A stretch of DNA of 64,000 nucleotides from Sphingomonas bacterium (GCA_030149245.1 JASBRX010000023.1:1-64000); one strand, 5' to 3'. Shown: positions 35,280-55,370, numbered from the stretch's first letter. Notes: a model not told the origin generated them from the letters alone. Numbers and translations are program-made.

Positions 35280-35355
35280 GCCGCTTTAGCTCAGTTGGTA
35301 GAGCATCGCATTCGTAATGCGGGGGTCACAGGTTCGAGTCCTGTAAGCGGCACCA
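35280..35355 (+). tRNA. tRNA-Thr (anticodon CGT), CCA encoded
   Basis: GCCGCTTTAGCTCAGTTGGTAGAGCATCGCATTCGTAATGCGGGGGTCACAGGTTCGAGTCCTGTAAGCGGCACCA; 7-bp acceptor stem, loop TTCGTAA. Confidence 0.95.
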
Positions 35356-35503
35356 GTTCTTCGCGAAATCGACCTGGCTTGCAGTGGCGGCGATTGCATT
35401 TCCCCGATTCGAACTGCGAGGAGAGCTCCCAATTGCGTTACGGCGCAAAGACCTGCAGGCTGCAGTGCATTCCGGCCTGGCAAGTTCGCGAGCAGCATAA
35501 GCG

Positions 35504-36388
35504 ATGATCGACCCCCGCGCGCTGCGCACCTTTCACGCGGTTTGTCGCGCTGGAACAATCAGCGGTGCTGCGCGACAGCTGAACATTTCGCAGCCATCGG
35601 TCTCGACTGCGATTGCGGCGCTGGAGGCGCGGCTTGGGGTGGTATTGTTCAGTCGGTCGCGGGGTGGGATTGTGCTTACGCCGGAAGGGGAGGCGCTGTG
35701 CCTTCGGGCCGAGATGCAGGCCAGCCTGCTCGATCAGGCGGAGGTGGAGGTTAAGGCAGCGAAGGCTGGCCTCGCCGGAGCACTGCGGGTCGGCGGCACG
35801 CCCGGTGCGTTGGTCAGCCTGTTGCCCAGAGCGCTTAAAGGGCTGGAAGCCGAGGGACTGCCCTTCTCGCTGAGTGTCATTGAGCGGGCGGATCTGGAAC
35901 TGATCGAAATGCTGCGTGAAGGTGCGATCGAGCTCGCATTTGTCACGACCGAGCTTGAGGAGCCGCCGGTCGGCCTGATCGACACAACGGTGTCGCGTGA
36001 TCCCTTCGCGCTGATCGTCGGTCGCGGCAACGATGCCCTGCCGGATCGTATGCCGTTGAGCGCAGCCGACGGCTTGAGCTGGGTACTTCCGGAGGCACGC
36101 GGTGGCTTTCGGCGACAGGTCGATGCACTGTTCATTGATGCGGGCCTGCGCGTCCCCCGCGATGTCGTGCGCTGCGACTCGCTGCTCACAACCAAGGCTT
36201 TGGTGCGAGCGGGGAAGCGCGTGACGATCTTGCCGGTCGAGGTCGCGGCCTCGGAGCTGTCGATCGGGGTGCTGCGCGCGATCACGCTGGAAGGCGTTCG
36301 GCCCCAGCGCAGCGTTGGCATCCGGCGTCTGGTCGACCGCCCGCTGTCACCGCTCGCATCAAAAATGTTGGCCGCGCTGGCCAACTGA
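35504..36388 (+). CDS. LysR-family transcriptional regulator
   Basis: LRTFHAVCRAGTISGAARQLNISQPSVSTAIAALEARLGVVLFSRSRGGIVLTPEG. Confidence 0.94.
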   Translation: MIDPRALRTFHAVCRAGTISGAARQLNISQPSVSTAIAALEARLGVVLFSRSRGGIVLTPEGEALCLRAEMQASLLDQAEVEVKAAKAGLAGALRVGGTPGALVSLLPRALKGLEAEGLPFSLSVIERADLELIEMLREGAIELAFVTTELEEPPVGLIDTTVSRDPFALIVGRGNDALPDRMPLSAADGLSWVLPEARGGFRRQVDALFIDAGLRVPRDVVRCDSLLTTKALVRAGKRVTILPVEVAASELSIGVLRAITLEGVRPQRSVGIRRLVDRPLSPLASKMLAALAN

Positions 36389-36487
36389 TCCAAAGGCTCA
36401 GCCTATGGATGGGTCAAAAACCTGTATTTTATTGAATGAGAAAAATCTGACATCACTCTCCGCATAGATATCCGGAGAGGCAGGTTC

Positions 36488-37708
36488 ATGCGAACGCTCA
36501 TTCGTAACGTCCGTATTTTCGACGGTACCGGCCAGGCTCCGTTCGATGGGAGCGTGGTGGTCGAGGGCGAGAGGATCGTCGCGGTTGAGCATGGTTCGAC
36601 CGAGCCTGCTGCGGACGAAGTGATTGACGGCGGTGGGCGCACGCTGATGCCCGGCATGGTCGAGGCGCACACGCACCTCACCTGGGGATCGTCGGTCGAG
36701 AAAATCTATCACCAGTTTATTCTCCCGCCCGACGAACTGAAGGTCGCGGCGTGGCGCAATGCGCGCGTGCTTCTCGATCATGGATTCACGAGCGCCTATT
36801 CAGCTGGTGCGCTGGGCGATGGCATCGAGGTCGAGCTGGCCGCAGCAATCGCGCGCGGCGAAACGTCCGGCCCGCGCCTGGTTCCGTCGACGCTGGAACG
36901 CAGCCCGGAAGGTGCCGAGGGCGTTGATACCGGTGATGTGTTCAATGGTCGCGGCGCTGCGGCGATGCGCGACTTCGTGCGCTACTGCAAGGAGAGCGGG
37001 GTCAAATCGCTCAAACTGGTCATTTCCGGCGAAGACGCGCTGAAGCCCGGCACGGCGCAGGACATTCTCTACACCGATGAAGAGATGGAGGCGGCGGGCG
37101 TTGCGGCCCGTGAGGCCGGGCTGTGGATCGCGACCCATGCCTATTCGCCGCGTGCGATCGAACTCGCGCTCGAAGCGGGCGCGCGGATCATCTATCACGG
37201 CTCTTACGCCGATGCGGGTGCGGTGGACCGGATGGCCGCCGCCAAGGATCGCACCTTCTACGCACCCAGCCCCGGCGTCTCGATCGCGGCGCTCGAAGCG
37301 ACGCCGCCCCCGCATATCGACATGTCGCACATGAAGGCGAGCGCGGCCGAGCGGATGGAGCTGGAAGCGAAGATCGTCCCCGAGCTGAAGCGGCGCGGGA
37401 TGCGCATCTTGATCGGCGGTGACTACGGATTTCCGTTCAATCCGATCGGCCGCAACGCCCGCGATCTCCAGATTTTCGTGGAGCATTTCGGCTACACCCC
37501 GACCGAAGCGCTGGTCGCCGCGACCAAACTCGGCGGCGAGCTGATGGACCTTGAGGTTGGGCAAATCCGGCCGGGCTATCTGGCCGATCTGCTGCTCGTC
37601 GATGGCGACCCGACGGTCGATGTCGCGATCCTTCAGGACAAGAACCGGCTGGCCATGATCATGCGGAATGGCCAGCTGCATAAGGCTCCGGCGGAAGCGG
37701 TCGCATAA
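36488..37708 (+). CDS. Amidohydrolase family protein (imidazolonepropionase-like)
   Basis: GRTLMPGMVEAHTHLTWG, ATHAYSPRAIELALEAGARIIYHG, GYLADLLLVDGDP. Confidence 0.9.
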   Translation: MRTLIRNVRIFDGTGQAPFDGSVVVEGERIVAVEHGSTEPAADEVIDGGGRTLMPGMVEAHTHLTWGSSVEKIYHQFILPPDELKVAAWRNARVLLDHGFTSAYSAGALGDGIEVELAAAIARGETSGPRLVPSTLERSPEGAEGVDTGDVFNGRGAAAMRDFVRYCKESGVKSLKLVISGEDALKPGTAQDILYTDEEMEAAGVAAREAGLWIATHAYSPRAIELALEAGARIIYHGSYADAGAVDRMAAAKDRTFYAPSPGVSIAALEATPPPHIDMSHMKASAAERMELEAKIVPELKRRGMRILIGGDYGFPFNPIGRNARDLQIFVEHFGYTPTEALVAATKLGGELMDLEVGQIRPGYLADLLLVDGDPTVDVAILQDKNRLAMIMRNGQLHKAPAEAVA

Positions 37709-39225
37709 TGTTTGACGTTGCGATCATCGGTTGCGGCCCGGTCGGCGCGCTTGCTGCAAATCTGCTGGCACGCGAAGGGCTGTCGGTCGTCGTGCTGGAA
37801 CAGGCGAAGGACCTGCACCCGTTGCCGCGCGCGGTGCATCTCGACCATGAGATGATGCGGCTGTTCCAGCAGGCCGGCGTGATCGACCGCGTGGCGCCCG
37901 ACATGATCGCCACTGACGGCCATCTGCATGTCGGCGCGGACGGCAATGCCATCCGCTACATGGGCACGGTCGGCAAGCCGCGACCATTCGGCTGGGCCAA
38001 TGACTATTTCTTTTATCAGCCCGAGCTGGAAGCGCATCTGCGCGCGGCGTTCGACGGCGACCGGGTCACCATGCATACCGGCGCGAGGTTTGTCGGCCTG
38101 AGCCAGGACGCGCAGCAGGTCGTGATTTCCCACGAGCAGGACGACCAGCTTCGTGAAGTAAAGGCGCGCTGGGCGATCGGGGCCGACGGCGCACGCAGCA
38201 CGGTGCGCAAGGCGCTGGGGATCGAACTGGACGATCTGCAATTTGAAGAGCCGTGGCTGGTGGTCGATGCCGAGGTCGAGGGGCCGGTGACCTTTCCGGC
38301 GATCGACGGCGTCCCTGCGGACGCCGATCTGCAGCGGCTGTCGGTGATGATGTGCGATCCCAAGCGCCCGGCGACGATCGTCCCGGGGCGGGGCAATCAT
38401 CGTCGCTGGGAATTCATGCTGCTGCCCGGCGAAGATGATCAGGAAATGATGCAGCCCGAGCGGGTCGGCGCGTTGGTCGGCGCGTGGATGCAGGACGTTC
38501 CGCACCGCATCGTGCGCGCGGCGACCTATCGCTTTCACGGCCTGGTGGCGCATCAATGGCAGCAGGGTCGCGTCTTTCTGGCCGGAGATGCGGCGCACCA
38601 GACTCCGCCCTTTTTCGGGCAGGGCATGTGTCACGGTTTGCGCGATGTCGCCAACCTCGCCTGGAAGATGGCGGAGATCGTCAGGCACGACGCCAATCCG
38701 GCGCTGCTCGACACCTATCAGATCGAGCGCGACCCGCATGTCCGCGCGGTGATCGGCGCTGCGGTCGAGGCGGGACGCTATATCTGCGAGCTCGATCCCG
38801 AGCGTGCCGCTGCCCGCGATCAGGCGATGCGCAACAAGGCGCCGGCACGCGATGGCGAAACCGCGCATGACCTGATCCCGGCAATCCGCGAGGGGATCGT
38901 CGATCCGGCGAGCGCGGCGGCGGGTGAGCGGTTCATTCAGCCGGTGCTGGATGATGCGCGCAAGCTCGACGATGCCACCGGCGCGGGCTGGCGTCTATTC
39001 CTCCGCAATGCCGACATTGCCGGGACCGCGCACGGCGTTGCCCGCGTTGATGCGGGCGCCCTTGCCGACAGTGGCGCGGTGCTGCGCTGGATGGATGCGC
39101 ATGGCGTTGACGCGGTGCTGGTGCGCCCCGATCATTATGTGTTCGGGACCGCGCGGACCTCGGCGATCCCGTTGCTCGATCTGCGTGCGCGGCTTCTGGG
39201 CTTTCGCGAAAGGATCGCGGCATGA
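37708..39225 (+). CDS. FAD-dependent aromatic monooxygenase, MhpA-like
   Basis: DVAIIGCGPVGALAANLLAREGLSVVVLEQ, IGADGARSTVRKALG, VFLAGDAAHQTPPFFGQGMCHGLRDVANLAWK. Confidence 0.92.
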   Translation: MFDVAIIGCGPVGALAANLLAREGLSVVVLEQAKDLHPLPRAVHLDHEMMRLFQQAGVIDRVAPDMIATDGHLHVGADGNAIRYMGTVGKPRPFGWANDYFFYQPELEAHLRAAFDGDRVTMHTGARFVGLSQDAQQVVISHEQDDQLREVKARWAIGADGARSTVRKALGIELDDLQFEEPWLVVDAEVEGPVTFPAIDGVPADADLQRLSVMMCDPKRPATIVPGRGNHRRWEFMLLPGEDDQEMMQPERVGALVGAWMQDVPHRIVRAATYRFHGLVAHQWQQGRVFLAGDAAHQTPPFFGQGMCHGLRDVANLAWKMAEIVRHDANPALLDTYQIERDPHVRAVIGAAVEAGRYICELDPERAAARDQAMRNKAPARDGETAHDLIPAIREGIVDPASAAAGERFIQPVLDDARKLDDATGAGWRLFLRNADIAGTAHGVARVDAGALADSGAVLRWMDAHGVDAVLVRPDHYVFGTARTSAIPLLDLRARLLGFRERIAA

Positions 39226-39653
39226 GCCTGTCGCTTGCTTATGCCCAGCAACTGGTGGCAGGCGCGCTATCGGCGGCGCGTGAGCGCGCGTGCAAGCCGC
39301 TCGCGGTGGTTGTGCTCGACGCGGGCGGTCATCCGGTAGCGTTCGCGCGTGAAGATGGAGCTAGCCTGTTCCGCTTCGACATCGCCCGCGCCAAGGCGCT
39401 CGGCGCGCTCGGCATGGGGGCGGACAGCGATGTGCTGGCGGAGCGCGCGAAGGGCAATCCGGTTTTCTTCGCCAGCGTATCGGCCGCTGTCGGCGGCAAC
39501 ATCGCCTTTTCGCCCGGCGGCGTGATCGTTCGCGACGGCACGGGCGCCCCGATGGGTGCCATCGGCATCAGCGGCGACACCGGCGAGCGCGACGCCGAAT
39601 GCGCGCTGGCCGGAATTGCCGCAGCCAATGCCATTCAGGAGACATCGCAATGA
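39222..39653 (+). CDS. GlcG/HbpS-family heme-binding-like protein
   Basis: VVVLDAGGHPVAFAREDGAS, GAPMGAIGISGDTGERDAECALAGI. Confidence 0.88.
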   Translation: MSLSLAYAQQLVAGALSAARERACKPLAVVVLDAGGHPVAFAREDGASLFRFDIARAKALGALGMGADSDVLAERAKGNPVFFASVSAAVGGNIAFSPGGVIVRDGTGAPMGAIGISGDTGERDAECALAGIAAANAIQETSQ

Positions 39654-40540
39654 AGCTGCGCAGCATCGAACTCGCGCTGCCCGATCCCGCGGCCGCTGCG
39701 GCCTTCATGGTCGATATCTGGGGCATGGCTCCGGCGAAGGTGCAGGATGGGACGCATTATCTGCGCGGATCGGGCGCATTCCCCTATCTGGTCGCGTTCG
39801 AGCCGTCCGAACAGGAGTTCGTGCGCTCGACGACCTTCGTCTGCGACGAAGCCGAACTTGCGCGCATCAAGACACAGGTGGCGGAGGCCGGGTGTCCGGC
39901 AACGCCGACCGTGTCGCAGGACCCAGGCGGCGGGCACGGCATCATCGTCGAGCTTCCCGAGGGGGAACTGCTGCGCTTTCTGGTCGACACGCAGGAGGTC
40001 GATCCGATCGCTGGCGGCGACCTGCCGGTCAAGCTGACGCATGTGGTGTTCAACTCCGCCGACGCCGAGGCGTCGGGCGACGTCGCTGAACGGCTGCTCG
40101 GCTTCCGGGTGTCGGACCGCACGCGCGGCATGGTGTTCGTGCGCTGTAACGACAGCCATCATTCGACGGCATTCGCGCGCGCCGGCTTTGCCAGCCTCAA
40201 TCATATCGCGTTTGAAATGGCGGATCTGGACGCGGTGATGCGCGGCATCGGTCGCTTGCGCGATCATGGCGCGACGCCAGCCTGGGGACCAGGGCGACAT
40301 GGGCCGGGCGCGAACGTCTATGCCTATTACATCGCACCGTTCGGACCGGTGATCGAGTTTTCGACCGCGGTCGAGAAGGTGCCGGATGACTATCGCGTCG
40401 GGACCCCGGATGACTGGATCTGGCCACCCAACCGCATCGATCAATGGGGCATTTCCGACAAGGATTTCGACGGGCTGCGCAAGGCCGAGGAGCGCTTCCG
40501 CTTCCGCCGCGACTGGGAGCCCGAGCCGCTTGGAAATTGA
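39650..40540 (+). CDS. VOC-superfamily extradiol-type ring-cleavage dioxygenase
   Basis: Two VOC modules with candidate metal triad LTHVVF, LNHIAFE, VIEFS and YAYYIAPFG. Confidence 0.82.
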   Translation: MKLRSIELALPDPAAAAAFMVDIWGMAPAKVQDGTHYLRGSGAFPYLVAFEPSEQEFVRSTTFVCDEAELARIKTQVAEAGCPATPTVSQDPGGGHGIIVELPEGELLRFLVDTQEVDPIAGGDLPVKLTHVVFNSADAEASGDVAERLLGFRVSDRTRGMVFVRCNDSHHSTAFARAGFASLNHIAFEMADLDAVMRGIGRLRDHGATPAWGPGRHGPGANVYAYYIAPFGPVIEFSTAVEKVPDDYRVGTPDDWIWPPNRIDQWGISDKDFDGLRKAEERFRFRRDWEPEPLGN

Positions 40541-40622
40541 ACGCCGTGTCTTGCTGCGCGCCGCATTGGCCGCGCCGGTGATCGCCGCAGCAGGACATAT
40601 TGGCACAGCAAAGGGAATTGGA

Positions 40623-41456
40623 ATGACGCGTTATCTCAGCTTCAGGCGCCCCAATGGCGTGCCGAGCTTTGGCCGGATCGATGGGGAGACGGTGTCCGAC
40701 CTCGGCGCACCCGGCGCGGCGGCGTGGATGCGTGACGCCTTGGCGGACGGCCTGGAGCGCCTGCCCGTGTCCGCAACCTATGCGCGGAACCAGCTGCGGC
40801 TGCTCCCGCTCATTCCGAACCCAAACAAGATCCTGTGCATCGGGCTCAATTATGCGACCCATGTCGCAGAAACCGGGCGCGAGCAGAAGGAGCATCCGGC
40901 TGTCTTCACGCGCTGGACGGATACGCTGGTCGCGCAGGGCGAACCGTTGGTGCGCCCACCGGAAAGCACCCGCTTTGACTATGAAGGCGAACTCGCGGTC
41001 ATCATCGGCAAGGGTGGGCGACGCATCCCACGCGCCCGCGCAATGGAGCATGTCGCAGGCTATTCGATCTTCAATGACGCATCGGTCCGTGACTGGCAGC
41101 GGCACAATATCCAGTTCACGCCGGGCAAGAATTTTCCCGGGACCGGTGCCTTTGGGCCCGAGATGGTGGAGCGCGACGCGGTCGGCGATGTCACGGCGCT
41201 CCGCGTCCAGACCCGGCTCAACGGCACGGTCGTGCAGGATCAGCCGGTCAGCGACCTGATCTGGGATATTCCGTACCTGATCGAATATTGTTCGACCTTC
41301 ACCGAGCTGGCGCCGGGCGATGTGATCGCGACCGGCACGCCGGGCGGGGTCGGCGATAAGCGGACACCCCCGCTGTACATGAAGGCCGGCGACCGGGTCG
41401 AGGTCGCGATCGGCGCAATCGGCACGCTCAGCAACCCGGTGATCGACGAACACTGA
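40623..41456 (+). CDS. Fumarylacetoacetate hydrolase family protein
   Basis: NKILCIGLNYATHVAETG, DYEGELAVIIGKGGRRI, GYSIFNDASVRDWQ, GDVIATGTPGGVG; alternative TTG start at 40530. Confidence 0.92.
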   Translation: MTRYLSFRRPNGVPSFGRIDGETVSDLGAPGAAAWMRDALADGLERLPVSATYARNQLRLLPLIPNPNKILCIGLNYATHVAETGREQKEHPAVFTRWTDTLVAQGEPLVRPPESTRFDYEGELAVIIGKGGRRIPRARAMEHVAGYSIFNDASVRDWQRHNIQFTPGKNFPGTGAFGPEMVERDAVGDVTALRVQTRLNGTVVQDQPVSDLIWDIPYLIEYCSTFTELAPGDVIATGTPGGVGDKRTPPLYMKAGDRVEVAIGAIGTLSNPVIDEH

Positions 41457-41507
41457 CACCACAACACACACCAGCCCACACAACATATAGACTGAGGGGA
41501 GAGGAAA

Positions 41508-43826
41508 ATGATCAACAAGACGGCACTGAGCCTGGCGGTCAGCGCGCTCGCGCTGCTTGCGCCGCCAGCATTCGCGCAGGACGCAGCTCCCGCGCAGGAC
41601 GAGAGCGCGGAAACGACGAAGGGCCTTGAGGAGATCGTCGTGACCGCACAGCGGCGCGAGGAGAATTTGCAGAAGGTCGGTGTTGCTGTGTCCGCAGTGA
41701 CCGGCGATGCGCTGACTGCGGCAGGCATTTCCGAAACGGCCAACTTGTCCAAGCTGGTGCCGTCGCTGGTCATCCAGCCGACCGGCGGGTCGGGAACCAG
41801 CTTCTACCTGCGCGGTGTCGGCACGCTGTCGGGCAATTCCTTTGCCGAGAATGCGGTTGCGTTCAACTTCAACGGCGTGTTCATCGGTCGCCCGACCGCT
41901 CCGGCAGGCGCGTTCTACGATCTGGAGCGCGTTGAGGTCGTCAAGGGGCCGCAGGGCACGCTCTATGGCCGAAACGCAACCGGTGGCGCGATCAACGTGC
42001 TGCCGAAAAAGCCGCGGCTCGGCGTGTTCGGCGGTGACGTGACGCTGGAATATGGCAATTATGACAACAAGAAGGGCGCAGCCGCGCTCAACGTGCCGAT
42101 CGGCGACAGGGTCGCGCTGCGTGTCGCGACGCAGATCGTCGATCGCGACGGCTACCTGTCGGATGGCAGCTCGGACGAGCGTGGTGAGGCAGTGCGCGCC
42201 TCGCTGCTGATCGAGCCGTCGTCCAGCTGGTCGATGCTGCTGGTCGGCGATTACTTCAAGCAGCATGGCCGCGGCTATGGCAGCGTGCTGGTGCCGAGCG
42301 CGACCTTTGCCGCGCCGTCGCTCGATGAGCTGGTCGGCGGTGCCGATCCGCGCGCGGTGGCAGCGGTTCGCGCTTATGCGGCCACGCTGACTGCGCCGCC
42401 CTTCTGCGGCGGCGCCGGCGGGTTCGTGACGAGCAACTGCGTCTACACGCCGCGGACCGACAGCTATATCGACAATGAGTTCTTTGGCGTCAGCGCGACG
42501 GTCGAGGGTGACCTGGGCTTCGGCACGCTGACGGTGGTGCCGGCCTATCGCCGTTCGGACACCAATTTCAGGTCGTATCTGCCCGGTTTCCTTCAGGAAA
42601 TCGACGACGTCACCGACCAGATGTCGCTTGAGGTTCGCCTGAACTCGAACGCCGATCAGCGGCTGCGCTATGTCATCGGGGGCTTCTACTTCTTCGAAGA
42701 TCAGTCCGCCGCCAACTATTTCGCGCAGGGTGAACTGTCCACGACCCGCTTCACACCGCGGCTGAAGACGGAGAGCCGTGCAGTATTCGGGCAGGCGACG
42801 TTCGACGTTAGCGAAAGCTTCCGGTTGATCGCCGGCGCGCGCTACACCAGCGAGAGCAAGACCCAGCGGACTTCGGTCGTCTCGGGTGGACGCCCGGGCG
42901 TGGTCAATCCGCCGCTTCCTGCACCGTTTGACGGTGCACTCGATTTCGAACGCGTGACGTGGAAGGCGGGCGTCGAATGGGACGCCGGGCCACGCTCGCT
43001 AGTCTATGCGAACGTCGCGACCGGTTTCAAAACGGGCGGCTTCTTTGCGGCTGCCCCGCCCAACAACAGCTTCGCTCCGGAAAAGCTGACCGCTTACACG
43101 CTGGGTACGAAGAACCGTTTCCTCGACAATCGTCTGCAGCTGAACGTCGAGGCCTTCTACTGGGACTATACCGACCAGCAGATCACGTTCGTTGGCGGCA
43201 TTCGCGGTCAGACCGGTGTGTTTGCACAGGGCGGCACGACGCTGAACGCCGGCAAGGCTCAGATGTACGGGGCCGAGGTCGAACTTCAGTTCGCCCTGAC
43301 GCCGCGCGACATGTTTCGCGCAAACGTCCAGTTCCTGGAAAGCGAGTATAAGAGCTTCATCACCCCGATTTTCTCCAACACTGGCGCAGCGGTGCCGACC
43401 GGGTGCACGGTCATCGCCTCGCGGCTCGCCAATCCGGGTGTGAACAATGCACGTTTCTACGACACCGATTGTTCGGGGAAGCCGACGCTCAACTCGCCGA
43501 AATGGTCGGCCAATCTGGCGTATGAGCACACGTTCGAGCTGGGCGGCGACATGGAGCTGGTCGCCGGTGCGCGCACCACGCTGGAGTCGAGCCGCTATCT
43601 GGCACCCCAATATCTGCCGGAACAGCGCCAGGACGCCTACATGATGTCGGACGCGTCGCTGACGCTGGAGGGGCCGGAGGATCGCTGGACGATCACGGGC
43701 TATATCAACAATATCGAGGACGAGCGCGTCAAGGCGCAGGCCGGTCAGCGACCGATCCTGAACATCGTCTATGCGTCGCTGCGTCCGCCGCGCACCTATG
43801 GCGTGCGGTTGGGCTTCAAGTTCTGA
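41508..43826 (+). CDS. TonB-dependent receptor
   Basis: Signal peptide, EEIVVTAQRREENLQKVGVAVSAVTGDAL, LYGRNATGGAINVLPKKP, C-terminal GVRLGFKF. Confidence 0.94.
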   Translation: MINKTALSLAVSALALLAPPAFAQDAAPAQDESAETTKGLEEIVVTAQRREENLQKVGVAVSAVTGDALTAAGISETANLSKLVPSLVIQPTGGSGTSFYLRGVGTLSGNSFAENAVAFNFNGVFIGRPTAPAGAFYDLERVEVVKGPQGTLYGRNATGGAINVLPKKPRLGVFGGDVTLEYGNYDNKKGAAALNVPIGDRVALRVATQIVDRDGYLSDGSSDERGEAVRASLLIEPSSSWSMLLVGDYFKQHGRGYGSVLVPSATFAAPSLDELVGGADPRAVAAVRAYAATLTAPPFCGGAGGFVTSNCVYTPRTDSYIDNEFFGVSATVEGDLGFGTLTVVPAYRRSDTNFRSYLPGFLQEIDDVTDQMSLEVRLNSNADQRLRYVIGGFYFFEDQSAANYFAQGELSTTRFTPRLKTESRAVFGQATFDVSESFRLIAGARYTSESKTQRTSVVSGGRPGVVNPPLPAPFDGALDFERVTWKAGVEWDAGPRSLVYANVATGFKTGGFFAAAPPNNSFAPEKLTAYTLGTKNRFLDNRLQLNVEAFYWDYTDQQITFVGGIRGQTGVFAQGGTTLNAGKAQMYGAEVELQFALTPRDMFRANVQFLESEYKSFITPIFSNTGAAVPTGCTVIASRLANPGVNNARFYDTDCSGKPTLNSPKWSANLAYEHTFELGGDMELVAGARTTLESSRYLAPQYLPEQRQDAYMMSDASLTLEGPEDRWTITGYINNIEDERVKAQAGQRPILNIVYASLRPPRTYGVRLGFKF

Positions 43827-43887
43827 CGATGAGCGGGCGGCGGCAGGCATCGCCGCCCGCACCAATGAAGACGAGAGGATTGCGCTG

Positions 43888-44856
43888 ATGAAGAGCGTTG
43901 CGCGACTGCGCGCCGGACTGTTGTTCCCCTTGCTGACCATGGCCGGTGCGGCATGCGCCGATCCGACGGGGACGCCAGCAGTCGCCGAACGCGAGCCGAC
44001 ACCGGCGGCGCAATCGACCGAGGCGGTGTCGCTGACCTTGCTCGGCACGGGGGGCGGGCCGGGCGGGCGCAAAACCCGCGCGGGGATCGCGACGCTGCTG
44101 CAGGTTGGCGGCCGAAACTATCTGATCGACGCGGGTGAGGGGGTGTCGCGGCAACTCGCCGCTGCCGGGCTGCGCGATCAGGAAATTCCGGTCGTGTTCC
44201 TGACCCATTTGCACGACGACCATTATGCAGGCCTGCCGGCATTGGCGACATTCGCCTACACCCTGCGGTCCAAGAGCCTGAACCTGATTGGCCCGACTGG
44301 GACGAACCAACTGCGCACGGCGCTGGCCGATCTGCTTCAGGTCAGCGCCAGTATCCGAATTGTCGAAAACCGCCTGCCGCTCACCCCGGCGCAGTTTCTG
44401 ACGGCGTCGGAATATGGGCAGAACCCGGTCTATGCCGATGACGGGGTGAAGGTGACGGCGATCGTGAACCGTCACTTCCGCTTTGCGCCGGACAGCCCGA
44501 CTGCCGTGAACAAATCCTATTCGCTGCGGTTCGAAACCGGCGGGAAGGTCATTGTGTTCACCGGGGACACCGGCCCGGATCCGCGCGTCGACGCGCTGGC
44601 GCAGGGCGCGGACGTGCTGATCGCCGAGATGGCGTCCTACACCGATCGCACGCTCGTGCCGCCGATGATCCTCAAGCATATGGACGAAGAGCATCTCTCG
44701 CCGACCGAGGTGGGGAAGCTCGCCGCGCGCGCCGGGGTCAAGAAACTGGTGCTGTCGCACGTCGGCGTGGTCGGCGATGCCGATCTCGCGGAGATCAAGC
44801 GACATTATTCCGGACCGGTCGTGCTGGGCACCGACCTCGACCGGATCGATCTGTAA
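43888..44856 (+). CDS. Exported MBL-fold metallo-hydrolase (1)
   Basis: THLHDDHYAGLP zinc motif, FTGDTGPD; N-terminal hydrophobic signal. Confidence 0.9.
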   Translation: MKSVARLRAGLLFPLLTMAGAACADPTGTPAVAEREPTPAAQSTEAVSLTLLGTGGGPGGRKTRAGIATLLQVGGRNYLIDAGEGVSRQLAAAGLRDQEIPVVFLTHLHDDHYAGLPALATFAYTLRSKSLNLIGPTGTNQLRTALADLLQVSASIRIVENRLPLTPAQFLTASEYGQNPVYADDGVKVTAIVNRHFRFAPDSPTAVNKSYSLRFETGGKVIVFTGDTGPDPRVDALAQGADVLIAEMASYTDRTLVPPMILKHMDEEHLSPTEVGKLAARAGVKKLVLSHVGVVGDADLAEIKRHYSGPVVLGTDLDRIDL

Positions 44857-45884
44857 TGAAGGAAATCATGATGACCAAGTTGACCGCGCGCACTGCCTGG
44901 CTGGCGCTCGCGCTGACCGCCACCCCGCTGTTCAGTCTGCCCGCTTTTGCCCAGGCAGAGGCGACCGCGCCGACCAAGGCCGCCGGCGCCTATGAATGGG
45001 TGACGCTCGGCACGATGGGCGGCCCGATGCCGAGTGCAACGCGCGGGGAGCCTGCCAACCTGCTCAGCCGGAAGGGCAGCGCCCATCTGGTCGATGTCGG
45101 CGATGGCGCGGCGTCGGCGATGGCGGTGGCCGGCTCCGACTATCGCGAGCTGCGGACGATCTGGATCAGCCATATCCATTTCGACCATATCGGCGGTCTG
45201 TTCGGGGTGCTTGGGCTGCGCCTGCAGACTCGCGGAACGACCCCGCTTACCGTCTATGGCCCGCCGGGGACCAAGGCGATCGTCACCGGGCTGATCGACG
45301 CAATGCGTCCGAGCGCACGCTCCGGCTTCGGCGTGCCGGGCGAAGTGCCGATCGATCCGGGCGCGTCGATCACGGTGGTCGAGCTGGATGATGGCGCGGT
45401 GGTCAAGCTCGACGACTTCACCGTCCGGGTGGCCAGCAACAGCCATTACAGCTTCCCGCCCGACTCACAGAATGCGAAAGATTTCCGGTCGCTGTCCTTC
45501 CGCTTCGACCTGCCCGAGCGGTCGATCGTCTATACCGGCGACACCGGACCGAGCGACAAGGTGACGGCGCTGGCCAAAGGCGCGGACATGCTCGTCACCG
45601 AGCTGATCGATATCGAGGCGACATTGACCAATCTGCGCCGTCGCGCGCGGCAGCTCTCGCCCGAAGAGGCCGCAAACATGGAACGCCACCTGCGCGACCA
45701 TCATGTGACCACGACCGACATCGGCAAGATGGCCAGTGCAGCAGGCGTCAAGGAAGTGGTTGTCACGCATCTTGCCGGTGGCGGTGCAGCGACCGAGCCG
45801 GGTGCCGCAGATCGCTACGCCGCCGAGATCGGCAAGCTGTTCAGCGGTCGCGTGCGGATCGCCAAGGATCAGGACCGGTTCTGA
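44856..45884 (+). CDS. Exported MBL-fold metallo-hydrolase (2)
   Basis: SHIHFDHIGGLFG zinc motif, YTGDTGPSDKV; Sec signal ending PAFAQA. Confidence 0.9.
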   Translation: MKEIMMTKLTARTAWLALALTATPLFSLPAFAQAEATAPTKAAGAYEWVTLGTMGGPMPSATRGEPANLLSRKGSAHLVDVGDGAASAMAVAGSDYRELRTIWISHIHFDHIGGLFGVLGLRLQTRGTTPLTVYGPPGTKAIVTGLIDAMRPSARSGFGVPGEVPIDPGASITVVELDDGAVVKLDDFTVRVASNSHYSFPPDSQNAKDFRSLSFRFDLPERSIVYTGDTGPSDKVTALAKGADMLVTELIDIEATLTNLRRRARQLSPEEAANMERHLRDHHVTTTDIGKMASAAGVKEVVVTHLAGGGAATEPGAADRYAAEIGKLFSGRVRIAKDQDRF

Positions 45885-45886
45885 CG

Positions 45887-46759
45887 ATGCGCCCGCTGCT
45901 CCAGCCCGAGGCACATCGCAACGCGATTGCCGCGATCGGACGCGCGATGGGTCCGGCGGTGCTCGCCGACTGCCTGGCGATCTTTGAGGATGAGCAGCGC
46001 GCGTTGCAGGCGACGATGCCGCCGCTCGTGTCCAACGCGGTTTATGGCGACCATGCCCGTCACCGCCTGGATCTCTACGGGTCGGGGCAGGGGGAGCGTA
46101 AGCCGGTTCTGTTGTTCGTGCACGGCGGTGGGTTCGTATCGGGCGACAAGGGCGACGAGGGCGCATGGGCGAACGCCAATGTCGGGCGGATGGCCGCGTC
46201 GCTGGGCATGGTCGGCGCCGTCATGAACTATCGCTTGGCGCCCGAGCATCAGTGGCCGTGCGCGAGCGAAGATGTCGGGCTGGCGCTCGACTGGCTGCGC
46301 GCCAACGTGGTCAGCCATGGCGGCGATACGGAGCGGATCGTGCTGATGGGCACGTCAGCCGGTGCGATCCACGTCGCCGGACTAGCACGGCTCCGCCCTG
46401 ACCTGACGGATCAGGTGCGCGGGTTGATCCTGCTGTCCGGGCTCTACGGGTTCACCCCGCCGGAGGACAAGGATCTGCGCTATTTCGGCGACGCGTCCGA
46501 CTATCCCGACCGCGCACCCGGCCAAGCACTACTGTTGTGCGGTGTTCCGATGCTGCTGGCCTGCGCGGAATACGACCCGGCTCGTTTCCAGCGTGAGTTT
46601 CTGGAGCTGGAGTCGGCGCTGCTTGAGCGGCACGGCGCGATGCCCGCGACCTATGTCGCGTCCGGGCACAATCACTACACGCTCTCGCTGCATCTCGGCA
46701 CGCGCGATGTCCGACTCGCCAGCGAAATTGCGTGGTTTGTCGAGGAGTGCACGCGATGA
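45887..46759 (+). CDS. Alpha/beta hydrolase (carboxylesterase-like)
   Basis: LLFVHGGGFVSGDKGDEGAWANANVGR, LMGTSAGAIHVAG. Confidence 0.9.
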   Translation: MRPLLQPEAHRNAIAAIGRAMGPAVLADCLAIFEDEQRALQATMPPLVSNAVYGDHARHRLDLYGSGQGERKPVLLFVHGGGFVSGDKGDEGAWANANVGRMAASLGMVGAVMNYRLAPEHQWPCASEDVGLALDWLRANVVSHGGDTERIVLMGTSAGAIHVAGLARLRPDLTDQVRGLILLSGLYGFTPPEDKDLRYFGDASDYPDRAPGQALLLCGVPMLLACAEYDPARFQREFLELESALLERHGAMPATYVASGHNHYTLSLHLGTRDVRLASEIAWFVEECTR

Positions 46760-47211
46760 CTGACTTTGCGACCTATCGCCGCCGCGAGACGCTGGTCAGC
46801 GCCGCGATCAATACGGCCTTCAGCGCGCTCTTTTACGCGATCGTTTTCGGTCTCGCCGAGGCGTTGCCCGTGCGCGGGATGGGCGCGTTCGCATTCGACT
46901 TTTTGCCGCAGTCGGCAGCCATCGGACTGATGGCAAGCCTGATCCCCGGGTTGCTCTTGCGCCGCGCCATGGCGCGCGGGGCGTTTACAAACATCCCGGC
47001 GGCCGACGAACGGCACCGGATCGCGATCATCGTCGGCATTTCGATCGCCGGAGCAGTCGGCTGTGGGGCGGTTCTTGCCGGCTTATTCTGGCTGGTCGCA
47101 CCCGACCAGATTGGTCGATCCGCCGCGATTCCCATCAAGCTGGTCTATGGTGCCGCGCTCGGGGCAACGGTCACCTATGTCAGCCTGTCCGCGAGCCGCC
47201 GCGTCACGTGA
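46756..47211 (+). CDS. Hypothetical multi-pass membrane protein
   Basis: Hydrophobic segments; ATG overlaps upstream stop. Confidence 0.65.
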   Translation: MTDFATYRRRETLVSAAINTAFSALFYAIVFGLAEALPVRGMGAFAFDFLPQSAAIGLMASLIPGLLLRRAMARGAFTNIPAADERHRIAIIVGISIAGAVGCGAVLAGLFWLVAPDQIGRSAAIPIKLVYGAALGATVTYVSLSASRRVT

Positions 47212-47298
47212 ACGGCCTTGAGGCCATTCGGCGCATCCGTAGCCCACAGGAGTGGCTGTGGAGCGTGTGTGGTCGGCGCATTCAGGGAGGGTAAGAAG

Positions 47299-48321
47299 AT
47301 GCAGACCCCGTTTCTACGCAACAGCTGGTATGTCGCTGGCTATAGTTCAGAGCTGATCGAGGGCCGACTGCTCTCCCGGACGTTGCTCAACGAGCGCCTC
47401 GTTATGTTCAGGACATCCGAGGGTGAACCGGCCGCCATTCAGGATCGCTGCCCGCATCGCTTTGCACCGCTGAGCATGGGGAGCGTGGAAGGCGATAGGG
47501 TGCGGTGCGTTTATCACGGCCTGGCATTCAACCGCGTCGGAAAATGCGTTGATAATCCGCACGGACCGATCGGAGCGCTTGCAATCAGATCTTTCCCGAT
47601 CCTGGAACGGCAGGGGCTGTTGTGGGTATGGATGGGAGATGTAGAGTGCGCGAATTCCGAGCAGGTGCCGCGGTTCGACCAGCTTGATCCTTCCACCGAT
47701 CATGTGCGCCACGGCTACATTCATGGCAACGCACATTACGAACTGATGAGCGACAATATTCTCGACCTCAGTCACATCGAATTTCTGCATCCGATGCTGG
47801 GGACGCCTGCCGTGAGAGCGGCGAAAGTCACGGTCGAGCAGCGGGGTGATCGCATTGTCGTGCGGCGGAAGATTGAGAACGAAACACTGCCGCCCAATCT
47901 GGCCGCGACCTATCGCACGGCTGCCCGTCCGGTAAACCGCACATTGGAGGTCACTTGGACCGCTCCGGCGAACTTGATCCTCAAGGTGGCGATTGAAACG
48001 GAGGACGCCGGGCCGAAATGGTCCAGCGGCTCGCAATCGCTCCACCTATTTACACCTGAAACCGAAGGTTCCACCCACTATTTCTACGTCTCGAGCATCG
48101 CCCGGGACAAAGCGGATAGCGATACGGCCGATCGGTTCGCGACCGCTCTGGCCCATGTCTTTGCACATGAAGACAAGCCGATTATCGACGCTCAAGCTGC
48201 GAACATTGGCGATGCAGACTTCGAGGCGCTGAAGCCGGCACTCATGGCGATCGACAAGGGGCCGGCGCTTGCTCGTCGTCGTTTGAAGCAGTTAATCGCG
48301 GAGGAGAAGGCTGCCCCCTGA
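47299..48321 (+). CDS. Rieske non-heme iron oxygenase alpha subunit (VanA-like)
   Basis: Rieske CPHRFAPLS...CVYHGLAF; mononuclear iron site DNILDLSHIEFLH; SD aggg before ATG. Confidence 0.93.
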   Translation: MQTPFLRNSWYVAGYSSELIEGRLLSRTLLNERLVMFRTSEGEPAAIQDRCPHRFAPLSMGSVEGDRVRCVYHGLAFNRVGKCVDNPHGPIGALAIRSFPILERQGLLWVWMGDVECANSEQVPRFDQLDPSTDHVRHGYIHGNAHYELMSDNILDLSHIEFLHPMLGTPAVRAAKVTVEQRGDRIVVRRKIENETLPPNLAATYRTAARPVNRTLEVTWTAPANLILKVAIETEDAGPKWSSGSQSLHLFTPETEGSTHYFYVSSIARDKADSDTADRFATALAHVFAHEDKPIIDAQAANIGDADFEALKPALMAIDKGPALARRRLKQLIAEEKAAP

Positions 48322-48485
48322 AGAGGGATATAGGTCGTCGAAATCTGTCTGGCCGGCTGCAAGCGCTCTTCAGCCCGACTGAACCCGGTATCGCATTGGT
48401 ATCGCAAAGTCGGTCAAACCGCCCCAAATGTGGGGCTGACCCGCACATAATTTGGCTGTTTTCCGCCATTTTCTGCAGGGCAGCG

Positions 48486-48534
48486 CGCATTCGTAATGCG
48501 GGGGTCACAGGTTCGAGTCCTGTAAGCGGCACCA
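48486..48534 (+). repeat. attR-like duplicate of tRNA-Thr 3' end (49 bp)
   Basis: cgcattcgtaatgcgggggtcacaggttcgagtcctgtaagcggcacca identical to 35307-35355; 5' half of tRNA absent. Confidence 0.92.
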
Positions 48535-48946
48535 TTTCCCCGATCGCTGCAGTTCGTCACAGGGTAGAAAATACCAGAAATGTAATCCTTTCGGCTGTCC
48601 TGTCCCACCTGCAGAAGCCGTTTCACCTCGTCACTTCGTCACTTCGCTCGATTAACCGCCAGTCCGGAAAAGCACGAGCGATACGATCATGGGGTACCCA
48701 AAGCTGTTCTTGCCGTGGCGCTCGACCAGGATCGCCCGCGCCGATCGGACCTTTGCCTCGAAGTTGCGAGGCAGCGGCGCATTGTATGAAACGGGCGCGC
48801 GGGGCGCATCTGGATCACTGGCGAGTGCAATCAACCGGTCCTTGAATGGTTGAGTGCGATTGACCCGAAAGTGGCGCAATAAGCATCGACCGCACAAGGC
48901 GGTGACGTTCCTGGCCGGCGGCGCGCGTGTCATCACCGCCGCGCGG

Positions 48947-50908
48947 TCAGTCCGCCGCAATCTCGAGCCGAAAGGGAACCACCGGCAGCCCCGATCGCGC
49001 ATAGAGGTTGATCGCCGGGCTGCCCTGCCACGCATAGCGAACCGTGCTGGCCGGGCGGCCATCGTCGATCACCAGCACCCTTTGGTCACGCACAATCGCG
49101 CGCGCAAAGCGGCACGCGCCGTTCGCCTCGCACAGCTCGAACCCGACTGGCTCGACCGCGCCCATGACGGCCAGTCCTTCGGCGGAGCGCAGGGTGATTG
49201 CGATCCCCTCGCGCGTGCGGGTCGCCCGCACCGGCTGTGGCGCTGGCGGGACGGCTTTGCCATAGGCGACGCGCAACGCTTCCTGCCCCATGCGTTCGCC
49301 GACCACGTCCTTGTGCGCCGGGTGGATATCGGTCGCGATGCCGAGGTCGATGGCGACGGCCAGCCCGGTCGCGGGGTTCTCATTGGCAACGATCCGCTGG
49401 GCCTCGCGCAATTGCGCCCAGGGCGCATCGACCGGGCGGGGGCTGCGCGGCCCATAGCCGGGCAGCTGGACGATCACCACCGGCAGCGCCGGGTCGGCGA
49501 AATGCGCGCGCCAGCTCGTCCGCCATGTGCGCAGCGCGGCGGCATAGCCTGACGCACGGCTGGTGTTCGATTCTCCCTGATACCAGGCGATGCCGCGCAG
49601 TCCGGTGCCCGCGAGCGGCGCGATCATGCCGTTCCACGCCATGGTCAGCCCGCGCGGCATGCTCCACGGGATCGCGGGCGGCGCTTCCTTCCACGCGCTG
49701 TCGGCGGTGCCGCGACGATAGCGCCATGATCCGGCCAGCGGCTTGCGCGCACCGCCTGGCAGCACCAGCGCGAGCGCGTCGGCTGGACCGCTGAAGCCGC
49801 CGCCGCCCATTTCGTCGATCACCCGCACCGCGATGCTGTTCTCCCCCGCGCGCAGCACGCCCGCCGGGATGCGGTAGGCGCGCTGCTCGGCGGCAACCAG
49901 CTGGGCGCCCACCGGCACGCCGTTGATCCACACCCGGTCGCGCTCGTCGATCCGGCCGAGCTGGAGCACCACGTCCTTGCCCTCGCCAAGCTCGGCGGAG
50001 GTCAGCGTGACGGCGGTGCGGAACCACATGATCCCGTCATAGCCGCCAAGCCCGTCGAGCCCGGACCGCTCCCATTGGCCCGGCACCGCGATGCGATCCC
50101 AGCCGCTGTCGTCAAAGCCCGGCGCGGCCCATGCCGCTCCGGCGGACCCCGGATCGACCCGCTCCGCCCAGCGGTCGGTCGCCGTCACCGCTGCGGCGAG
50201 TGCGGCCGTCGGGTCGGACGCATAGCGGTCGAGCCAGCCGAACTGCTCGGGCGACGCGCCGGTCGTGCGGAGCGCAGCTGGCGACATCCAGTCCTCGATC
50301 GTCGACCCGCCCCAGGCAGCGTGGATCAGGCCGAGCGGAGTCTTCGGGTCATTGCGCAGGATTTCGCGCGCCATGTGCCAGCAGGCGGCGGAGAAGCCCC
50401 CGAGATTGTCCGGCGCGGCGCGCGACCAGGTGAGTTCGGGCACGATATCGCGTGCGGGCTTTGCCTCGGCGGTGCGCTTCACCTTGAGCAGGCGGATCGG
50501 CAGCCCTGCGCTTTCGCGGGCGGTACGGTCGGGGTTGGCGCTGCCCGACACCGGCAGGTCCATGTTCGACTGGCCCGAGCACAGCCAGACATCGCCGGTG
50601 GCCACGTCATCCAGCTGCAGCGACGCGCCGCCCGCTGACCGGATCGTCACCGCGCCGCTCTGGCCGCGGGGCAGGGCGGGCAGGGTGACCTGCCAATTGC
50701 CCTGTGCGTCGGCGCGCGCGGTGGCGGTGGCGGTGCCAAAGCTGACCGCAATTTCCTCACCCGGCTGCGCCCCGCCGCCTCGAATCGGCGCAGGCTTGCC
50801 GTGCTGCAGGACCATATGGCTAGCCAGGTGCGGCGCGACGGTGAGCGGTCCGGCCAGTGCCGGGATGGCAGTGGTCAGCGCGAGGGCGATCAGGGCGGTT
50901 CGGGTCAT
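48947..50908 (-). CDS. Sialate O-acetylesterase / SASA-family carbohydrate esterase
   Basis: DVWLCSGQSNMDLPVSGS, LGLIHAAWGGSTIEDWMS, GIAWYQGESNTSRA. Confidence 0.92.
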   Translation of the reverse strand: MTRTALIALALTTAIPALAGPLTVAPHLASHMVLQHGKPAPIRGGGAQPGEEIAVSFGTATATARADAQGNWQVTLPALPRGQSGAVTIRSAGGASLQLDDVATGDVWLCSGQSNMDLPVSGSANPDRTARESAGLPIRLLKVKRTAEAKPARDIVPELTWSRAAPDNLGGFSAACWHMAREILRNDPKTPLGLIHAAWGGSTIEDWMSPAALRTTGASPEQFGWLDRYASDPTAALAAAVTATDRWAERVDPGSAGAAWAAPGFDDSGWDRIAVPGQWERSGLDGLGGYDGIMWFRTAVTLTSAELGEGKDVVLQLGRIDERDRVWINGVPVGAQLVAAEQRAYRIPAGVLRAGENSIAVRVIDEMGGGGFSGPADALALVLPGGARKPLAGSWRYRRGTADSAWKEAPPAIPWSMPRGLTMAWNGMIAPLAGTGLRGIAWYQGESNTSRASGYAAALRTWRTSWRAHFADPALPVVIVQLPGYGPRSPRPVDAPWAQLREAQRIVANENPATGLAVAIDLGIATDIHPAHKDVVGERMGQEALRVAYGKAVPPAPQPVRATRTREGIAITLRSAEGLAVMGAVEPVGFELCEANGACRFARAIVRDQRVLVIDDGRPASTVRYAWQGSPAINLYARSGLPVVPFRLEIAAD

Positions 50909-50924
50909 GCTCGTTCCGATGGGT

Positions 50925-52157
50925 TCAGCGCGGATAGGGGATCAGCCAGCCGGAATCTTCGGCGGGCACCTGGGGCGGCATCAGCCCCGCGTCGCGGAAG
51001 CCCCATGCAGCAAGAGTCAGCATCGTGTCGCTCTCGGTCATCGCGCGCGCGCGGCGGCCGGGGTCGGCAAGGTCGATATCCTTGAACGACCAGCTGTCCA
51101 GCTTGGCGCGATAGCCGGCGAGATTCTCGACTCCGCGTCGCAGCGGATTGGCCTTCGCATCGCCCCGCCACAGATCGACCCCGACGCATTCGCCCAGCAT
51201 CGCCATCTGGACCCCGGCGCGCAGCGTGAAGGCGGAATAATGCCAGCTGCGCGTCCGCGCGGTTTCGGCGGGCAGGGTGCCGGCGGCGTCGATCTGCGGT
51301 CCGAGGCGGCGGGTCAGGAAATCCTGTGCCAGCCGTTGCGTCACGCTGTCCATCCGCGCGAAGAGCGCGAACTGGCCGAGCAGCGCGTCGTAATAGACGC
51401 CGTGATTATTCTTGGCGGCGCGTTGCCCCTTGCCATTCGGGCTGGTCGCCATCCAGGTCGCGAAGTTGCCGAACCAGCTTTCGATCGCACGCTGATCGTC
51501 GGCGGTGATCGCCTTGCTCGGGCCGAGCACGCCGATCGCCTCGATCACCGGGACCAGTCGTGTCGCTTCGATAATGCCCTCCGGACGTCCGGCTGACGCG
51601 CCGGGCACCGCCTGCGCATAATCGAGATTGGGGTTCATGCGCGTTTCGGTGGTGACGAACCAGGCGCGCAGCAATTTTGCGGCATGCTCGGCATAGCGGG
51701 CGTCGCCAGTGGCGTGCCACGCCAGCGCCAGCGTCTCGACATCGCGGCTGAACGCGCCCAGCCGCTGGACATCGAAGCGGTCGCCATTGCGCTCCGGGTT
51801 CACTTCGCCGTCGCGGCGGCGATAGGGTTCGCCATCGGGTTTCGATGCGTCCGGCCACCAATAGGGGCCGATCGACAGATAATCGCGCTTGTCGCCGCTG
51901 CCCGCCGCGCGCGGCTTGTCGGTGACGCTGTAGGGACCACGGCGCAGCGCCGCGTCTGCGCCGCGGATCAGCTGGCGCAGCGCCGCATCGTTGGCGGCGG
52001 CGGCACGCTGGGCCGCCAGCCATTCGGGCCGCCACAGGAATGTCCGCTGGCCGCTGGCGAGATAGCCGTCCGAACCCTTGCACTGGGCCAGGGTCGGGGC
52101 CGCTGCGGCCGGGGCGGCGGCGAGCAGCAGCCCAGCAATGATCGCAACGCCGTGCAT
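50925..52157 (-). CDS. Alginate lyase family protein
   Basis: KRDYLSIGPYWWPDASKPDGEPYRRRDGEVNPE, AKNNHGVYYDALL. Confidence 0.9.
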   Translation of the reverse strand: MHGVAIIAGLLLAAAPAAAAPTLAQCKGSDGYLASGQRTFLWRPEWLAAQRAAAANDAALRQLIRGADAALRRGPYSVTDKPRAAGSGDKRDYLSIGPYWWPDASKPDGEPYRRRDGEVNPERNGDRFDVQRLGAFSRDVETLALAWHATGDARYAEHAAKLLRAWFVTTETRMNPNLDYAQAVPGASAGRPEGIIEATRLVPVIEAIGVLGPSKAITADDQRAIESWFGNFATWMATSPNGKGQRAAKNNHGVYYDALLGQFALFARMDSVTQRLAQDFLTRRLGPQIDAAGTLPAETARTRSWHYSAFTLRAGVQMAMLGECVGVDLWRGDAKANPLRRGVENLAGYRAKLDSWSFKDIDLADPGRRARAMTESDTMLTLAAWGFRDAGLMPPQVPAEDSGWLIPYPR

Positions 52158-55100: not shown

Positions 55101-55294
55101 TCGGCCTTGCGGCGGATATCGAGCGCGTTTTCGAGCGAGGCGCGGATGCCGGTGACGACGACCTCTTCTTCCGCCTCGGGCTCCTCGGCGGGTGTGGCTT
55201 CGGTCTGTGCGTAAGCCGATGGTGCCAGTGCAATGGCGAGCCACGCGGTCGAACTGACTGCGGCAACTCTGGCCGCGTGCGCGAAGTTCCTCAT
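52157..55294 (-). CDS. TonB-dependent receptor of carbohydrate-utilisation type
   Basis: Signal peptide, EEEVVVTGIRASLENALDIRRKADVILDGISADDIGSTPDLNLGEALQRIPGVQINR; C-terminal TGALSVTVKF. Confidence 0.94.
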   Translation of the reverse strand: MRNFAHAARVAAVSSTAWLAIALAPSAYAQTEATPAEEPEAEEEVVVTGIRASLENALDIRRKADVILDGISADDIGSTPDLNLGEALQRIPGVQINRSADRRDASISVRGLPSQYTKTTVMGQSIATPTFGTRGNGNPFGIFDAAIFSGADVIKSFTAEIPAGGLASNVDLRLRSALSRKQGFVARAELQYEETTEDANPGYFLSAVKRITPNFGVYATGSYAKQSFRRDTIRVNSYTSFTQARLNQLALTNPAFAIPATDAGGVANDVVFPSEVRQISQTNQGYRLSGGAGMEWEISDALKVRVDGIYTRRDLSDANLDLLIAFPQDATGIVTPLSAPVALGTFDRGSNGSVENVYVVNNIAASDFAIPIGNRNFPSIDQSWAIYPQVNFRNDDWAVDFVGTWSKAVGDKREFLYEQRIQPNTGRADANGDGIDDAGNGAYAIINTGLGNYGDFLFDLTVPAALLDVGNGTYSVSAGNAIQARNSTRPQNVVFTASGNGVRVKRDMLAADFKVERFVDFGPFTSVKVGAYYQRETADQTLQENANIGTQLNNLTNNIFRLNDAVTSGGTFFGGGAPGAEFGNFYSLNIRNIEAAIYPVISTVPPGVTFAPTAAQLAAFFPELTPAARSRITYANILALAPRNSLTGFIQRFPLNRVEGQNFNSERDNLELFAMTKFDLEQWKGLPVRGNIGMRYVRSNLSGITRDQALDFYTALGFTEADFRPGYFLPPEPATGKYSAWLPSANLIYEITPKLVARAAYYETFEAFDLVEFSPAPTRILEDVDPDAGDTVSAVRIDVNRFGLQPRSSRAFDLGISWYNRPGSVIAIGYFNKRVTNDILTLNNFCPAGQSFTIEGQTFGPLFIDGSGRCRINQGNPIETANQRITINQIVNNPDAINVNGLEFQIQQRFDFLPGFLRNTGGVFNYTRVRSGGANGTKLYNVANDTYNIIGYYEDRVVQLRMAYNHASEIELAGGSTFTGSASRVRPRGQLDFSGALKPSKWLELRLEVYNITNSRREEYEGDPRLNRVADFDGRTGALSVTVKF

Positions 55295-55370
55295 CTGCTC
55301 TCTCCCCAATATTCTAATTTTGATACCGGTGTCATCTTGCGGCGCAGCTGATTGTCCCTGCGCCCACCGC

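Follow-up and report, generated by a model that had tools for sequence, protein, structure and literature searches.

A probable tRNA-Thr genomic island of Sphingomonas that carries an aromatic-catabolic cluster and has lost its integrase

We propose that a unit of about 13 kb beside the tRNA-Thr(CGT) gene of a Sphingomonas genome is a tRNA-integrated genomic island whose integrase has been lost, i.e., a decayed, CIME-like element that integrated, underwent a deletion at its left end and left its cargo fixed beside the tRNA; we put the probability of this reading at roughly 0.75. We infer that the cargo arrived with this element, that these events took place in this order and that the unit is now immobile. 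The unit lies in a stretch of 64,000 nucleotides, hereafter the window, that forms the start of the 237-kb contig C4. Its ends are built as follows.

35280..35355, + strand: intact tRNA-Thr (CGT), called by ARAGORN and backed by its fold and by a left flank kept in the genus; its 3' part is the attL core
35307..35355, + strand: copy 1 of the 49-bp direct repeat, attL core
35356..35503, + strand: left inner end, with no GGTATCGC arm site and no integrase remnant; presumed deletion scar
48387..48405, + strand: tandem GGTATCGC-ATT-GGTATCGC, putative arm-type site for the integrase within attR, spaced 99 bp from the right core
48486..48534, + strand: copy 2 of the 49-bp direct repeat, attR core, displaced tRNA-Thr 3' end

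The two copies of the repeat are identical (0 mismatches), run from the anticodon arm through CCA of the tRNA, differ from each other in the bases outside them and start 13,179 bp apart. This agrees with the first-pass annotation, which had described an exact 49-bp duplication of the 3' part of tRNA-Thr, lacking the tRNA 5' half and set in differing flanks, as the bounds of a unit of about 13.2 kb. Such a perfect repeat is far outside chance. ARAGORN calls the intact tRNA-Thr(CGT) at 35280-35355 and a second tRNA at 48465-48534, the latter joining the 3' fragment to a 5' half that is not tRNA sequence; the intact gene is well folded (-28.1 kcal/mol, z -2.6), while the fragment shows no tRNA fold (z +0.3), and the second call is thus false. 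The unit therefore has the layout of an island, with an intact tRNA followed on its 3' side, in the same orientation, by an identical displaced 3' fragment. The left flank (32.3-35.36 kb) is syntenic with the two nearest relatives at 86% and 80%, and since this synteny stops at CCA, the left boundary is exact. For the annotation, many such tRNA fragments scattered across the genome, or relatives with the block as syntenic core, would have spoken against an island, and both objections fail: the whole 3.1-Mb assembly contains just two copies of the repeat, even allowing 3 mismatches, and no relative examined has the block at the tRNA-Thr locus. Separately, the 12-mer CATTTCCCCGAT at 35397-35408, within the unit close to its left end, is found again at 48533-48544, where the right core meets its outer flank; its recurrence is due to chance or is the relic of a second rearrangement.

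The right end can be tied to one integrase family. The tandem GGTATCGC-ATT-GGTATCGC occurs once in its own genome, counting matches with up to 1 mismatch, and the same tandem precedes the right core in the tRNA-Thr islands of two other Sphingomonas genomes, G029 (99 bp before the core; island of 21 kb) and G095 (98 bp; 18 kb). As the mark of the family's right arm, we took a GGTATCGC tandem that stands inward of the right att core at a distance of about 98-106 bp, and the present unit carries it. A motif scan of IMG/VR returned 18 stretches with the tandem; in sphingomonad prophages, the motif either lies within the 3' end of one integrase gene, where it encodes LRYQRDT, or precedes a tRNA-Ala-type core by 83-85 bp. 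The G029 and G095 elements both have an integrase of this family (N-terminal WLWYRxDRDDW, PF00589), the two being 74% identical to each other and that of G029 being 64% identical to a prophage homologue. A divergent 199-aa gene adjoins the integrase in both, and Pfam identifies it as an HTH_3 regulator in G029. The attL/attR signature of tyrosine-recombinase type at the tRNA 3' end, as the first-pass annotation had read it, is thereby strengthened, the right copy having arm-type sites at the family spacing.

The integrase itself is missing. The GGTATCGC arm tandem is absent from 35356-35503, the left inner end at which the 3' end of the integrase gene would be expected, and blastx against the family integrases found no remnant between the tRNA and the LysR gene or around attR (best not below E 0.1). 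Domain searches recognised no integrase, transposase, IS, relaxase, transfer, conjugation or phage gene within 35356-48485; the relaxase or conjugation genes that define an ICE or IME are thus not among the unit genes. The genome has no match to a WLWYRxDRDDW-family integrase at E 1e-30, to be read against a draft assembly (57 contigs, 82.7% complete) from which an integrase encoded elsewhere could be missing; annotated phages gave no match to the family either. The first-pass annotation has to be corrected on this point: there is no integrase in the unit, no family member in the assembly and no left inner arm site. Without an integrase, the unit has no means of excising itself, and it is probably immobile. 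In G095, the integrase directly abuts tRNA-Thr and the left arm is gone, which makes that element, as judged from its sequence, a second case of left-end erosion. Its integrase reading frame (L286:4126-5463) extends into the tRNA-Thr antisense, and at the 3' acceptor end of the tRNA AAGCGCTCC takes the place of AAGCGGCACC; the altered acceptor end and the overlap suggest that tRNA-Thr(CGT) may be damaged there.

Between its ends, the unit is filled by 12 co-oriented ORFs that form an aromatic-catabolic cluster (ORF calls, Pfam, NCBIfam).

35504..36388, + strand: LysR-family regulator (Pfam)
36488..37708, + strand: amidohydrolase, prolidase/imidazolonepropionase-like (Pfam; PDB relatives)
37708..39225, + strand: FAD aromatic hydroxylase, MhpA-like (Pfam; above the NCBIfam NF004829 cut-off)
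39222..39653, + strand: HbpS-like haem-binding protein (Pfam)
39599..40540, + strand: VOC-fold extradiol dioxygenase (ORF maximal; true start probably about 39653)
40386..41456, + strand: fumarylacetoacetate-hydrolase (FAA) family (ORF maximal; start probably further in)
41508..43826, + strand: TonB-dependent outer-membrane receptor
43771..44856, + strand: metallo-beta-lactamase-fold (MBL) hydrolase 1 (ORF maximal)
44856..45884, + strand: metallo-beta-lactamase-fold hydrolase 2
45887..46759, + strand: alpha/beta hydrolase (Abhydrolase_3)
46732..47211, + strand: 159-aa orphan (no Pfam/NCBIfam match; homologues at 28-52% near the cluster elsewhere)
47218..48321, + strand: Rieske oxygenase, VanA-like

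The cluster is separated from the tRNA by 148 bp and from the right core by 164 bp. From the gene make-up, we would predict that a phenolic compound is hydroxylated, then cleaved by the extradiol enzyme and finally hydrolysed in an FAA-type step. The fde and ifc flavonoid clusters (PMC11069340) likewise bring together a FAD hydroxylase, a glyoxalase (VOC)-type ring-cleavage enzyme and an alpha/beta hydrolase, a likeness of gene make-up; flavonoid-like phenolics as the substrate are only a guess.

The composition of the cargo is nearly host-like, with GC within the host range and GC3 of 0.68-0.81 versus 0.80-0.88 in the flanks, which counts against the island reading. Its closest kin are found in Novosphingobium, including megaplasmids, and the core order (amidohydrolase, FAD hydroxylase, HbpS, VOC, FAA hydrolase, alpha/beta hydrolase) is kept in many Novosphingobium and Sphingobium. 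The fullest match, the MAG SAT22, also has the TonB receptor, both MBL genes and the 159-aa orphan, and the N. aromaticivorans megaplasmid NC_009427 carries the cluster at 75% over 4.8 kb. In a quick tree, the FAD hydroxylase falls in a mostly Novosphingobium clade of 40 rows (support 100), and most other Sphingomonas copies fall in other clades. Within the genus Sphingomonas, the cluster is scattered over chromosomal sites other than tRNA-Thr, and at the tRNA-Thr locus it is absent in 150 other genomes. These relationships fit a putative horizontal gain of the cluster from within the sphingomonads, which would explain the host-like GC. The genome also holds a second TonB receptor and MBL module (C5:20631-23606), about 71% identical in DNA to that of the island; in the relative G026, the counterpart of this second module lies about 10 kb from a histidine-kinase region, which in the present genome is found at 57-61 kb of the window.

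In the model that we propose, the attP of an element with a WLWYRxDRDDW tyrosine integrase would have recombined with the single tRNA-Thr(CGT) over its 3' half, between the anticodon stem and CCA. The element-supplied 3' end would keep the tRNA intact (attL), and the original 3' end would be displaced by 13.2 kb (attR). A later deletion just after the tRNA would have removed the integrase, the neighbouring regulator and the left arm site. The aromatic-catabolic cargo would thus remain fixed beside the tRNA, with control by LysR, uptake through TonB and enzymes for ring hydroxylation, extradiol cleavage and FAA-type hydrolysis, to which Rieske, amidohydrolase and MBL steps are added. Even if integrase were supplied in trans, the unit should be excised very inefficiently, if at all: both inner arm sites are expected to be necessary, and the left one is missing.

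Other histories of the unit deserve consideration. The attR could have been left by an older element, the cluster having come later by homologous recombination, transposition or plasmid integration between the tRNA and attR. Kin of the cluster do sit in other Sphingomonas chromosomes and on Novosphingobium and Sphingobium megaplasmids, none of them at tRNA-Thr, and other elements of this integrase type hold other cargo. No such catabolic cluster was seen in the G095 or G029 elements, so that cargo and integrase could have different histories, which speaks against their joint origin. However, the cluster takes up nearly the full length of the unit, and no transposase or IS was recognised in it; we consider this late entry unlikely, if the least unlikely of the alternatives.

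It is more doubtful still that the unit is a functional cis- or trans-mobilizable element without its own integrase, which an incoming or tandemly integrated element with the same integrase would still excise. The attR core and its arm site are intact, mobilization of CIMEs is documented (PMC5704250) and tandem arrays at tRNA-Thr are common in the genus, but the unit lacks the left arm site (placed within the 3' end of the integrase gene in the prophages), the genome has no matching integrase and neither a second copy nor an empty site was seen. As for a misjoin of the assembly at the 49-bp repeat, a draft of 57 contigs and 82.7% completeness invites the question; both copies nevertheless lie within one 237-kb contig, colinear on both sides with a single-contig relative, and the correctly spaced arm site of the right copy is not something that a misjoin could create, leaving such an artefact with hardly any chance.

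A decayed island remains our preferred reading, although its right side did not behave as foreseen. The first-pass annotation had expected an empty site that reads tRNA-Thr followed by TTTCCCCGATCGCTGCAG, the sequence after 48534. No such site was found: the right flank is not conserved in the relatives examined, and in none of them does this sequence stand beside tRNA-Thr. An intact sister of this island was not found either in the genomes examined. We therefore discarded the right flank as a conserved attB; its likeness to the arm region of another element type was slight and below a shuffled null. We also discarded the phage record MT836721 (50-bp perfect match) as an attP, since it holds the same chromosomal left flank and an intact tRNA and is thus host DNA. 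Contig C4 is syntenic with G026 up to the tRNA and again beyond 122 kb, and the two parts follow each other alike in both genomes; in between, the 87 kb of C4 from 35356 to about 122,350 have 90 kb of other sequence as their counterpart in G026. As the DNA right of the repeat is variable to about 122 kb, the 13-kb unit is the tRNA-proximal module of a larger variable zone. Beyond this zone, identity to G026 falls stepwise over C4 122351-214440, from 97.7% (37 kb) to 95.7% (20 kb), 91.6% (36 kb) and then about 88%; the flank left of the tRNA is at 86%, versus 97.7% just beyond the variable zone. The gradient looks like recent homologous exchange beside the hotspot. Right of the repeat, window positions 48947-57038 encode a carbohydrate esterase, an alginate-lyase family protein with homologues in just 4 of 60 relatives (best 47-50% identity), a TonB receptor and an MFS transporter, probably a polysaccharide-use cluster.

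The site itself is much used. The tRNA-Thr 3' end was found in 146 of 151 Sphingomonas genomes and at least two copies in 33 of the 151, often as tandem arrays on one contig. The upstream side (glutamate dehydrogenase) and the tRNA are conserved in the genus; similarity ends at CCA and is followed by unrelated DNA in the relatives compared. Several distinct arm-repeat types adjoin tRNA-Thr cores in the genus. Judging by these comparisons, tRNA-Thr(CGT) is a genus-wide integration hotspot. In Sphingomonas parapaucimobilis NZ_CP155751 (L300:13237-14859), a large serine recombinase gene, with Resolvase, Recombinase and Zn ribbon domains, runs on the strand opposite to this tRNA-Thr and has its end within the 3' half of the tRNA gene; this record bears the label of a plasmid, yet has the conserved glutamate-dehydrogenase flank. 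Serine integrases at tRNA genes are unusual. Among the neighbouring elements, that of G029 (L053/L054, G029:C23:50801-76000) carries a putative type I restriction-modification set, judged by gene size and order, and that of G095 (L286) a TonB receptor, a GH1 gene and defence-like genes including an ABC-3C-like pair; the restriction-modification set and the ABC-3C-like pair suggest that the tRNA-Thr dock also collects defence genes. A broader view would make tRNA-Thr(CGT) a shared dock where unrelated recombinase families (several tyrosine-integrase arm types and a serine recombinase) exchange cargo, and where a resident element keeps and moves integrase-less cassettes such as the catabolic island; we regard this as very improbable.

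Among known systems, the unit appears to fit the CIME definition, having kept the attL and attR cores and lost the recombination and transfer genes, although its mobilizability is doubtful. Like CIMEs (PMC5704250), it is att-bounded, has no integration or transfer genes, is derived by decay and sits at a tRNA open to tandem insertion; the difference is that one inner arm site also seems lost here, which makes mobilization in cis or trans doubtful. It shares with the tRNA/tmRNA islands of Islander (PMC4383910) a tRNA and a displaced 3' fragment in the right order, orientation and length, with an anticodon-type att, but it fails the integrase filter, having no integrase between its ends, and by the Islander rule it is not a putatively active island. 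The ssrA-specific vcrABC islands of Dehalococcoides (PMC3146451) are likewise about 12-13 kb and place a degradative operon at a single small stable RNA gene that serves many islands. There, 16 of 31 ssrA islands, the vcrABC ones included, keep an integration module (PMC3146451), whereas the Sphingomonas unit has none.

Stranded remains of mobile elements at tRNA genes are an ordinary, well-documented kind, and this island is a further case. Sphingomonads are a group known for aromatic degradation. Our analysis names a genus-wide integration hotspot and ties one integrase family to its arm sites; these may be used to find islands once the integrase is gone, where standard island finders fail. 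In the history that we favour, a sphingomonad would have acquired a complete catabolic operon at a single, fixed site of its chromosome and retained this operon through loss of the integrase.
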